A stretch of DNA of 64,000 nt from Brachyspira intermedia PWS/A (lineage in GTDB: Bacteria > Spirochaetota > Brachyspiria > Brachyspirales > Brachyspiraceae): assembly GCF_000223215.1 (NCBI RefSeq), contig NC_017243.1, forward strand, positions 372,001 through 436,000, given 5' to 3'. Both the position numbers and the translations under genes were made by a program. The notes below the pieces were generated by a model, which was given only the letters and a program-made list of their open reading frames with translations, was not told the origin of the DNA and made no database searches. Shown one piece after another: positions 14,285 to 47,425 of this stretch. Position 1 is the stretch's first letter. Each line of letters begins with the position of its first letter.

Positions 14285-15308
14285 ATTGATTAGATTTATA
14301 TATTTATTAATAATAATATTGGCATTTACATCATGTAATAATAATGAGAATATAACACCTATAAGAACTAGAAAAATAGCACCGAAAGTTTCAAGTGCTT
14401 TCAAATCTCCAGCATATAATTTAAGAATAAAATATATTATACTTCATTACACTGCTTTAAATGATGATTTATCATTCAAAGTATTGACTGATCCCGGAGT
14501 ATCTGCTCATTATCTCATAACTACAAAAAAAGATGAGCCTATATATAAACTTGTAGATGATGGAGACCGAGCTTGGCATGCTGGTATTACTATGTTTGAT
14601 AACAGATATAGTATGAATGATTCCTCAATCGGTATAGAAATAGTGAATTTAGGATTCCTAAAAAAAGTTACTAATACTTATGAAGAATTAAATAGAATGA
14701 CGCAAAAGCAAAGAGATGAATTATTCTTTACTTCTTATGATGAATATATAGAATTTGAAGAAAGTCAAATAGAGAAAGTAGCATACTTACTTAAAGACTT
14801 AATAGAGAAATATGAAATAAAACCTTATAATATATTAGGCCATTCTGATATAGCGCCATATAGAAAAAAAGATCCAGGTCCTAAATTCCCATGGAAAAGA
14901 CTTCATGATGAATATAATTTGGGCATTTGGTATGATGAATATGATTACAGCAACTTTTTAAATGATGATGAATATAAAAAAGCAAAAGTAATGGATATAA
15001 AAGAAGAGTTTATAAAATACGGATATACAAGTATGCCTACAAATAATGTTTGGGATCTTGATTCCAGAAAGGTGATTTATGCTTTTCAATGTCATTTCAG
15101 ACCTGAAAAAATAGACGGAAATATTGACAATGAAACTTATGCTGTTATTAGAGCTTTGAATCTTAAAGTAAAAAAGATTAATGAAATGGATGAACGTTCT
15201 AAAGCTAATAACTTTCTTACTAATACATTCTTTACTAATATATTTATAAGCAATAACATAATAAGTACAAATTGGAACTACAATACAAATAGATCATTCA
15301 GGAAATAG
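14277..15308 (+). CDS. N-acetylmuramoyl-L-alanine amidase lipoprotein (AmiD-like)
   Basis: 343 residues from ATG 14277 (MFKLIRFIYLL); an earlier in-frame ATG at 14262 would only add MEFLY. A lipoprotein signal ends FTSCNNN. An Amidase_2/PGRP domain follows, with zinc ligands in IILHYTA, AWHAG and GHSDIAPYRKKDPG. A peptidoglycan-binding_1 domain lies near residues 245-300 (VWDLDSRKVIYAFQCHF, DGNIDNETYAVIRAL). It cleaves the amide bond between muramic acid and the peptide stem, probably from the periplasmic face. Its start lies inside the CHAT gene, and rsmI follows 8 bp later, so the three genes look like one operon. Confidence 0.85.
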   Translation: MFKLIRFIYLLIIILAFTSCNNNENITPIRTRKIAPKVSSAFKSPAYNLRIKYIILHYTALNDDLSFKVLTDPGVSAHYLITTKKDEPIYKLVDDGDRAWHAGITMFDNRYSMNDSSIGIEIVNLGFLKKVTNTYEELNRMTQKQRDELFFTSYDEYIEFEESQIEKVAYLLKDLIEKYEIKPYNILGHSDIAPYRKKDPGPKFPWKRLHDEYNLGIWYDEYDYSNFLNDDEYKKAKVMDIKEEFIKYGYTSMPTNNVWDLDSRKVIYAFQCHFRPEKIDGNIDNETYAVIRALNLKVKKINEMDERSKANNFLTNTFFTNIFISNNIISTNWNYNTNRSFRK

Positions 15309-16150: not shown

Positions 16151-16435
16151 ATATACTAAAAATTTTAGAGTTTGTCATTTTTTTATTCAACTTTTTCCCG
16201 CCGCAAAAAGTTGCAAAAAGTGCAAGTATAAAATTAGTACTAAATAATACTAAAATTGTTTTACATGTAAGATAGGTTATTAATTTGAGCTAAAATATAG
16301 CCCTTTTGCTTCTTTGGGGCACCAAAAGAAGTGGGGGTTTTGGGACTAGTCCCCGAAAATAATAAAAATATAAAAAATAAAATTGATAAAATATAATTGT
16401 TTAGGTATATACTAAAAATTTTTAAGTTTGTCAAC
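16151..16435 (+). mobile_element. MITE-like intergenic element, copy 1
   Basis: About 285 bp. It starts with atatactaaaaatttt... ending in gtttgtca (16151-16177) and a second copy of that end sequence lies at 16407-16433. Inside are a caactttttcccgccgc / gcaaaaagttgca hairpin and a ttctttggggcaccaaaaga / gtgggggttttgggact block. Each block has a clear counterpart in reverse orientation inside 47156-47425. It carries no coding capacity that I trust. Confidence 0.55.
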
Positions 16436-45181: not shown

Positions 45182-45814
45182 TTAACTTTTTTGTACTAAA
45201 TCTTTGAAGCCTCTCAATATATTAAGTCCTGTATTTCCGCTTTTTTCAGGGTGAAACTGTATCCCGTATACATTTTCATTTTTTACTATGGCTGGTATTT
45301 GAACATCATATTCACTGTCAGCTATTATGCTTTCATCGCAATCCTTGCCATAGTATGAATGTACAAAATAAACATATTCCATATTATTAATATATTTAAA
45401 TAGTTTATCTTCTTTTTTTATATTGAGATTATTCCAGCCCATATGAGGCACTTTCAAATCTTTATTTTTTAAATCTTTTTCTATAGGGCATATATTTCCT
45501 TTTATAAGTCCAAGTCCGTTATACTCACCATATTCATAGCTCTTATCAAAAAGCATTTGCATACCCAAGCATATACCCAAAATTAATTTTCCTTTTTTAG
45601 CTTCTTCTATAATAGTATTTTTTAATGTTCCGTCTTTTCTTCTTTCAAGTTTTGCCAATGCATCTCTGAAAGCTCCTACTCCCGGCAGTATCAAAGCATC
45701 GGCTTCTTTTATAGTTTTTTCATCATCTGTAAGTTTAGCATCTATTCCTACATACTTTAATGATGACATAAGAGAGAATAAATTTCCTACTTCATAATCT
45801 ATTATAGCTGTCAT
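45182..45814 (-). CDS. hisH: Imidazole glycerol phosphate synthase glutaminase subunit
   Basis: 210 residues. The class I amidotransferase triad is present: Cys in LILGICLGMQMLF, and His/Glu in YGIQFHPEKSG. The N-terminus IDYEVGNLFSLMSSLKYVG is typical. It supplies ammonia to HisF. HisF is not in the window; only hisB lies next to it, upstream on the same strand. Confidence 0.95.
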   Translation of the reverse strand: MTAIIDYEVGNLFSLMSSLKYVGIDAKLTDDEKTIKEADALILPGVGAFRDALAKLERRKDGTLKNTIIEEAKKGKLILGICLGMQMLFDKSYEYGEYNGLGLIKGNICPIEKDLKNKDLKVPHMGWNNLNIKKEDKLFKYINNMEYVYFVHSYYGKDCDESIIADSEYDVQIPAIVKNENVYGIQFHPEKSGNTGLNILRGFKDLVQKS

Positions 45815-45877
45815 AAAAAAATCCTATTAATTTATTGAAGTTATTATACTAAAATAAAACATAAAAGTCAAAGTATA

Positions 45878-45893
45878 GGGGTGGGCGGGCGGG
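45878..45893 (+). other. Perfect G-quadruplex motif between hisB and hisH
   Basis: Four runs of three or more G separated by single bases (ggggtgggcgggcggg). It lies on the plus strand, which is the template strand for both his genes, in a genome where G runs are rare. The gggtggg core also occurs in the dispersed repeats at 16.1, 17.8 and 58.1 kb. Confidence 0.8.
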
Positions 45894-45954
45894 CTGAATA
45901 AATTAAAAAATATTAATTATATGCCTTTTATAAAAAGAACAAAAAATCAATTTT

Positions 45955-46572
45955 TTAATTTTTATTATTTTCAAGCATTCCCTTTGTAGATAATACTTCA
46001 TTTTTATATTTTTCATCTATTTCACAAGCCTGTGCTAAAGCTCTGGCAACACCTTTAAAAATGGATTCTATTATATGATGAGTATTCTCTCCATATAAAG
46101 TATTTATATGCAAAGTAATATTCATAGAATTAGTAAATGCTGTAAAAAACTCTTTAACAAGTTCAGTATCGAAATCTCCTACTTTTTCATGCTTCAAATC
46201 ACTGTTAAAAACTAAATGACTTCTTCCGCATATATCAACCGCAGTCATAGTAAGAGCCTCGCACATAGGCATACTAAAATTACCATATCTTTTAATACCT
46301 TTTAAATCTCCTAAAGCTTCAGCAAAACATTTTCCCAATACAATACCAACATCCTCCACAGAATGATGATAATCAATATGAATATCACCATCGCATATAG
46401 TTTCTAAATCGAATCTTCCATGGCGTGCAAACAAATCAAGCATATGATCCAAAAATCCTACTTTAGTATTGTTTTTGTATTTTCCTGTTCCATCTATATT
46501 TAATTTTATTTTTATCTTTGTTTCATTAGTATTTCTTTCTATTTCAGAAACTCTCATTTTATTATTCTCCAT
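45955..46572 (-). CDS. hisB: Imidazoleglycerol-phosphate dehydratase
   Basis: 205 residues, the size of the monofunctional enzyme (no phosphatase domain). The manganese-site motifs are GFLDHMLDLFARHGRFDL, DYHHSVEDVGIVLG and THHIIESIFKGVARAL. It performs step 6 of histidine synthesis. With hisH it forms a minus-strand pair with a 140-bp gap. Confidence 0.95.
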   Translation of the reverse strand: MENNKMRVSEIERNTNETKIKIKLNIDGTGKYKNNTKVGFLDHMLDLFARHGRFDLETICDGDIHIDYHHSVEDVGIVLGKCFAEALGDLKGIKRYGNFSMPMCEALTMTAVDICGRSHLVFNSDLKHEKVGDFDTELVKEFFTAFTNSMNITLHINTLYGENTHHIIESIFKGVARALAQACEIDEKYKNEVLSTKGMLENNKN

Positions 46573-47155: not shown

Positions 47156-47425
47156 ATACTGAAAATTTTTAACTTTTTCAAAATTTATATTTTTAATTTT
47201 ATTGTTTGTGGTGGCTTTGCCCCCACACCCCCAGTTCTTTTGTTGGCACAAAGAACCAAAAAGCCTGCATTTATTGTATAAATTTAGGTTATGTCATATA
47301 TTTAATAAGTATATATTTAATATAAAGTTCTAGTAATTGCGTTTTTTGCAACTTTTTTGTGCGGCAAAAAAGTTGATAATTCTATATAAAGTGCATCAGT
47401 TGACAAAGTTAAAAATTTTCAGTAT
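47156..47425 (-). mobile_element. MITE-like intergenic element, copy 2, with perfect 21-bp inverted ends
   Basis: The ends 47156-47176 and 47405-47425 are exact reverse complements (atactgaaaattttt... and its complement). Inside, a gtggctttgccccca / ttctttt...aaagaacc block and a tgcaacttttttgtgcggca hairpin match, in reverse orientation, the blocks of the 16151-16435 element. Total 270 bp, no reading frame of note. Confidence 0.75.

Follow-up and report, generated by a model that had tools for sequence, protein, structure and literature searches.

A dispersed, Brachyspira-specific intergenic G-quadruplex motif with a copy beside the predicted hisH promoter

The four-run G-quadruplex motif between hisB and hisH of the gut bacterium Brachyspira intermedia PWS/A belongs to a family of intergenic elements that is scattered through Brachyspira genomes and specific to that genus; from comparison of orthologous loci, the family's G-runs appear to be preserved by selection. 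The family is real, non-random and present across most of the genus, and on sequence evidence it is a candidate functional element.

We analyzed a 64,000-nucleotide stretch of DNA (the window). Its genome totals 3,308,048 bases, and the larger of the two contigs has 3,304,788; these sizes match those published for PWS/A (3,304,788 and 3,260), for which an intergenic GC content of 20.4% is given (PMC3163572). The motif, GGGGTGGGCGGGCGGG, was read exactly at 45878-45893 on the + strand, with T, C and C as its loops, and conforms to the canonical definition of an intramolecular G-quadruplex (four runs of at least three G, loops of 1 to 7 nt). The window contains no other canonical G3+N1-7 motif on either strand, the 16-mer has a G4Hunter score of 2.56, and none of 100 dinucleotide shuffles of the window produced a match. 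The earlier note, made from the window's letters alone, had described a quadruplex motif of the one-base-loop class that is striking in such AT-rich DNA, and that description holds. Plain single-strand folding at the motif returned no structure, a result that carries no weight either way on quadruplex formation.

Both neighboring genes lie on the - strand, which puts the G-runs on the template strand of the his genes, as the earlier note had said. Upstream is the open reading frame at 45955-46572, which we take, following the earlier note, to be hisB, encoding imidazoleglycerol-phosphate dehydratase; downstream is hisH (45182-45814), a glutamine amidotransferase gene identified by its reading frame and a Pfam GATase match. 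Between them, a promoter scan predicted a near-consensus hisH promoter only 6 bp from the motif, which the earlier note had not described, with a -35 box TTGACT at 45866-45871 and a -10 box TATAAT at 45843-45848, both on the - strand. Read along the his strand, 61 nt separate the hisB stop from the C-rich complement of the motif, and a further 6 bp lead to TTGACT-17-TATAAT, after which comes hisH; the motif thus sits within an 83-nt spacer (45872-45954) that runs from the hisB stop to the -35 box. On the 3' side of the G-runs (45894-45903, + strand) is a conserved flank, with ATYYATTC(T/A)R as its C-strand consensus ahead of the first C-run, based on an alignment and column profile of 27 locus representatives. 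An intrinsic terminator (a GC-rich stem-loop followed by a T-run) was ruled out at the motif, as none was found in 45700-46050.

The earlier note had proposed that transcription into hisH could be paused or blocked by a template-strand quadruplex. The strand of the G-runs fits, and quadruplexes in the template strand are described as lowering or blocking T7 transcription in vitro (PMC7341879). Against this, the predicted promoter is on the hisH side of the motif, so that transcription from it would begin past the motif and the predicted hisH transcript would not include it; therefore only read-through from hisB could meet the motif. Across the family there is also no preferred orientation to genes (see below). 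We consider the proposed mechanism at hisH very unlikely.

Comparison of hisH loci across Brachyspira points the same way for the promoter and gives a split answer for the motif. On loss of the G-runs in relatives, which the earlier note had raised, the motif is present at 8 of 19 hisH loci, all with four intact runs and at an equal distance from hisH, and is absent from the other 11, one of which has a HisH identity of 92%. The predicted promoter, including the -35 box, is kept in relatives with and without the motif; six of the 19 loci (L009-L013 and L016) have the promoter and lack the motif. It follows that hisH does not need the motif, which is a point against the quadruplex element that we propose below. 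In one of these loci (L009), about 15 nt separate hisB from the promoter, versus 83 nt in the B. intermedia window. Among the hisH loci, L015 is truncated by a contig end, and its motif scan was negative.

The same element recurs well beyond hisH. The B. intermedia genome has nine GGGNGGGNGGGNGGG sites, a multiplicity that goes beyond the earlier note, versus about 0.0003 expected for independent bases; it has one further three-run site and no one-mismatch sites. Non-homopolymer copies were found in 19 of 25 Brachyspira genomes, at 2 to 14 each, while five genomes have no copy and one (G021) has a poly-G tract only. These six copy-less genomes, together with G018, which has only two copies, show the lowest identity for a conserved flanking peptidase (60-71%); other genomes with an ortholog of this peptidase show 81% or more, and G020 gave only a weak paralog match. 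The family totals 132 distinct sites in 34 locus groups, counted from 136 non-homopolymer matches after removal of three whose loops include a G and one whose flanks duplicated those of another match. Nearly all sites (128 of 132) are outside open reading frames of 80 amino acids or more.

An extended 23-base form of the motif occurs in nine stretches among 84,980 GTDB species genomes, all of them in Brachyspira. It has no match in viral contigs, and a phage origin of the family was ruled out on that basis. A known structured RNA was likewise rejected, based on the absence of Rfam matches at gathering score in ten loci (30,741 bases). Our literature search found nothing linking Brachyspira with G-quadruplexes; of four Brachyspira papers that mention "quadruplex", the three listed have titles on PCR, epidemiology and infectomes.

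Other unusual sequences were seen in this AT-rich DNA. Isolated poly-G tracts of 15 or more occur at L053 (G005:C3, near 59503) and L080 (G021:C1, near 1234868) and are slippage candidates. The window has two GC-rich islands in opposite orientation, at 16313-16350 and 47208-47245 (AGAAGTGGGGGTTTTGGGACTAG... and ...GCTTTGCCCCCACACCCCCAGTTCTTTTG), which resemble stretches in L053, L212 and L246 and are probably another dispersed Brachyspira repeat. A second recurring motif lies near GCCGCAAAAAGTTGCAAAAAGTGC / GCAACTTTTTTGTGCGGCAAAAAAGTTG at 16200-16225 and 47340-47375, with similar stretches in L033 and L215.

We compared runs, loops and flanks in orthologs collected by gene rather than by motif, because a motif-based search would find intact copies only. 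The sets comprised eight hisH loci, 10 of the 11 motif-bearing KptA/C26 loci and six cation efflux loci, and the alignment omitted L239 and L237. Pairwise difference in the runs was 0.000 for hisH, 0.033 for KptA/C26 and 0.028 for cation efflux, whereas the loops gave 0.167, 0.197 and 0.222. For the 20 bases to the left, the corresponding values were 0.036, 0.174 and 0.168. Variable columns made up 3 of 36 in the runs versus 6 of 9 in the loops (p 0.0007) and 18 of 60 in the left flank (p 0.01); with two further run breaks included, 5 of 36 run columns vary (p 0.003 versus loops, 0.06 versus left flank). The columns are related through a common tree, and the p values should be taken only as guides. 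Loops vary in 15 of the 22 multi-member locus groups. Several observations count against strong selection: runs are broken at four of the 11 motif-bearing KptA/C26 loci (L236, L239, L240 and L249), the core motif is absent from the KptA/C26 locus L237 although its flanks are kept, and seven genomes contain 17 one-mismatch sites versus 62 perfect ones. Of the one-mismatch sites that we fetched, 14 of 15 belong to known locus groups.

These comparisons bear on the possibility that the element is a passive short repeat, left by a mini-transposon or a duplication, whose spread is simply recent and whose G-runs have no function. Flanks are similar between non-orthologous loci, as expected of a spreading repeat, and presence or absence differs between species at hisH and KptA/C26. 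However, the runs diverge more slowly than the loops and flanks, intact orthologous copies are kept between species whose neighboring protein is only 84% identical (L247), and L237 lost the core alone instead of a unit with clean ends. A passive repeat is therefore doubtful in our view.

The flanks fall into two classes, with the class and representative counts resting on 27 and 9 representatives, respectively. In the main class, the C strand carries a T-rich stretch and ATYYATTC(T/A)R directly before the first C-run. In the second, TTAAACAAACATTTTTAAC lies on the other side of the core (22 sites aligned). Both flanks occur together at a few sites, such as L160 and L174. Loci of the TTAAACAAACATTTTTAAC class (L090, L091, L126, L045, L095 and L092) adjoin vsp surface-protein genes, type I specificity (hsdS) and methylase (hsdM) genes, an Eco57I-type methylase gene and hicA, a setting typical of variable regions and thus a further point for a passive repeat. 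L126 and L090 each hold two motif copies, 400-480 bp apart.

The loops are not random in base. Loops on the G strand are nearly always pyrimidines, with A at 15 of 396 loop positions, and C predominates despite an intergenic GC content of about 20%, which counts against a quadruplex reading. Adenine loops are often reported as unfavorable to quadruplexes, although the effect is described as context-dependent (PMC12650012), and the rarity of A fits quadruplex stability. The first loop on the C strand is G in 119 of 132 sites, which fits either base recognition or shared descent.

This preference brings in a second alternative, that the element is the duplex site of a putative Brachyspira regulator or nucleoid protein, which would read CCC triplets in a four-base rhythm plus a TATTCTG-like flank, with the quadruplex incidental. 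The position-specific loop base and the asymmetric flank of about 10 bp, conserved beside the core at 27 locus representatives, look more like base recognition and argue against a quadruplex reading, and the absence of an orientation rule relative to genes also suits a duplex site. Yet the loops are more variable than the runs in every ortholog set, and the same core is common to two different flank classes. We regard this explanation as possible, if on the unlikely side, and as standing close behind a DNA-level structural element.

Position relative to genes argues against several simpler functions. Among the 34 locus groups, the G-runs are sense in 10, antisense in seven, divergent in nine, convergent in five and undetermined in three. 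This mixed orientation makes a function dependent on transcription direction unlikely for the family, and a template-strand roadblock is therefore not its common function. We rejected a regulon, as the flanking genes have no common function (40 of 43 listed flanking proteins, 22 groups). A universal upstream promoter element was also rejected: many groups have no good adjacent promoter and five of 34 are convergent, while hisH, cation efflux, DUF6506 and a few other groups do have a good promoter beside the motif.

On the chromosome, copies in the B. intermedia genome lie closer to the origin than a uniform spread would place them (KS p 0.004), using the published origin, where the PWS/A sequence start was placed by GC skew (PMC3163572). 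In three other complete genomes, copies are nearer parS-like sites than uniform (KS p 0.0001, 0.063 and 0.058; 13 of 14 sites used for G019, one of two neighboring sites having been dropped). These p values are not independent, because the genomes share orthologous sites. In the B. intermedia genome, the copy at 15218 (locus L048, G000:C2 14726-15331) has a perfect parS-like site, TGTTTCACATGAAACA, on each side, at 14726 and 15316. Such positions might be expected of a chromosome-organizing site and lend some weight to a duplex-binding protein, although the lack of independence among the origin tests weakens that point. In G009, two parS-like sites flank a one-mismatch motif copy (L198). A leading/lagging strand bias was rejected, with five leading versus four lagging copies in the B. 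intermedia genome, assigned by hand from the published origin.

Draft assemblies break near the motif more often than expected. Contig ends lie at most 100 bp from 6 of 62 sites, where 0.86 would be expected; one genome accounts for four of the six. Stalling of polymerases or assemblers at the motif would give such a pattern, but these ends could instead reflect repeats. In G023 (L100 and L239), the KptA side and the C26-peptidase side of a single motif locus are on separate contigs. Both sides have a motif copy of their own, intact in one and with a broken run in the other, which points to a rearrangement breakpoint at or beside the motif.

The mixed orientation, loop bases, origin proximity and contig ends lead us to favor a DNA-level structural or docking element. 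Specifically, we propose, tentatively and with a little less than even confidence, a dispersed Brachyspira intergenic element that is kept for its G-runs and acts as a quadruplex barrier or docking site. The nine perfect copies, the intergenic placing and the slower divergence of runs than loops support an element kept for its G-runs. The family would have arisen in an inner clade of the genus and then reached about ten loci per genome, being retained because the G-runs matter. When strands part, whether by read-through transcription, replication or supercoiling, the G-strand could fold into a parallel quadruplex, which may form a barrier, or a docking site for a quadruplex-binding protein, at transcription-unit boundaries. 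At hisH, RNA polymerase bound to the promoter would have the motif immediately upstream, and the motif might shield or tune that promoter, the shielding being chiefly against hisB read-through. It is from sequence patterns that we infer folding in the cell, an effect on expression and a protein partner. In a more specific version, the copies, about ten per genome and in one case between the two parS-like sites, would be genus-specific, origin-near chromosomal quadruplex landmarks that dock a nucleoid or replication protein, with the second flank class promoting vsp/hsdS recombination; we think this improbable.

The closest published parallel comes from Xanthomonas and Nostoc, whose interspersed quadruplex repeats (Rehm et al. 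2015, PMC4692102) are abundant tandem heptamers (GGGNATC or GGGGA(C/T)T) with 2 to 26 units. As described there, those repeats share with the Brachyspira family an enrichment in noncoding DNA and a preference for four units (nine four-run sites versus one three-run site in the B. intermedia genome). The Brachyspira unit, however, is GGGN and not a heptamer, and the family differs in having four runs with loops of a single base, about ten copies, a genome of 27% GC and a conserved asymmetric flank. Recurrent potential quadruplex sequences of the archaeal Methanomicrobiaceae similarly comprise several highly similar interspersed motifs per genome, but the account in PMC8044849 has them followed by a C-rich track that can form hairpins or triplexes; none was seen in Brachyspira, where the flank is AT-rich. 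The vls quadruplex DNA of Lyme Borrelia offers another spirochete case, and one Brachyspira flank class lies by vsp and hsdS; unlike the vls motifs as reported in PMC3585125, most loci, the hisH copy among them, lie away from antigen genes. The Neisseria pilE quadruplex is of the recombinogenic type and belongs in the same comparison group as Borrelia vls. A placing suited to antigenic variation (pilE/vlsE type) was not seen at hisH and was seen for the class beside vsp and hsdS.

Whether bacteria retain quadruplexes for a function has mostly been debated on the evidence of GC-rich genomes, whose base composition makes G-runs common. In Brachyspira, each copy is individually improbable, because intergenic GC is only about 20% (PMC3163572). 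With 19 species that offer orthologous loci, sites lacking the motif and natural variation in the loops, this small family forms a clean natural experiment and would let selection on the quadruplex itself be directly tested.
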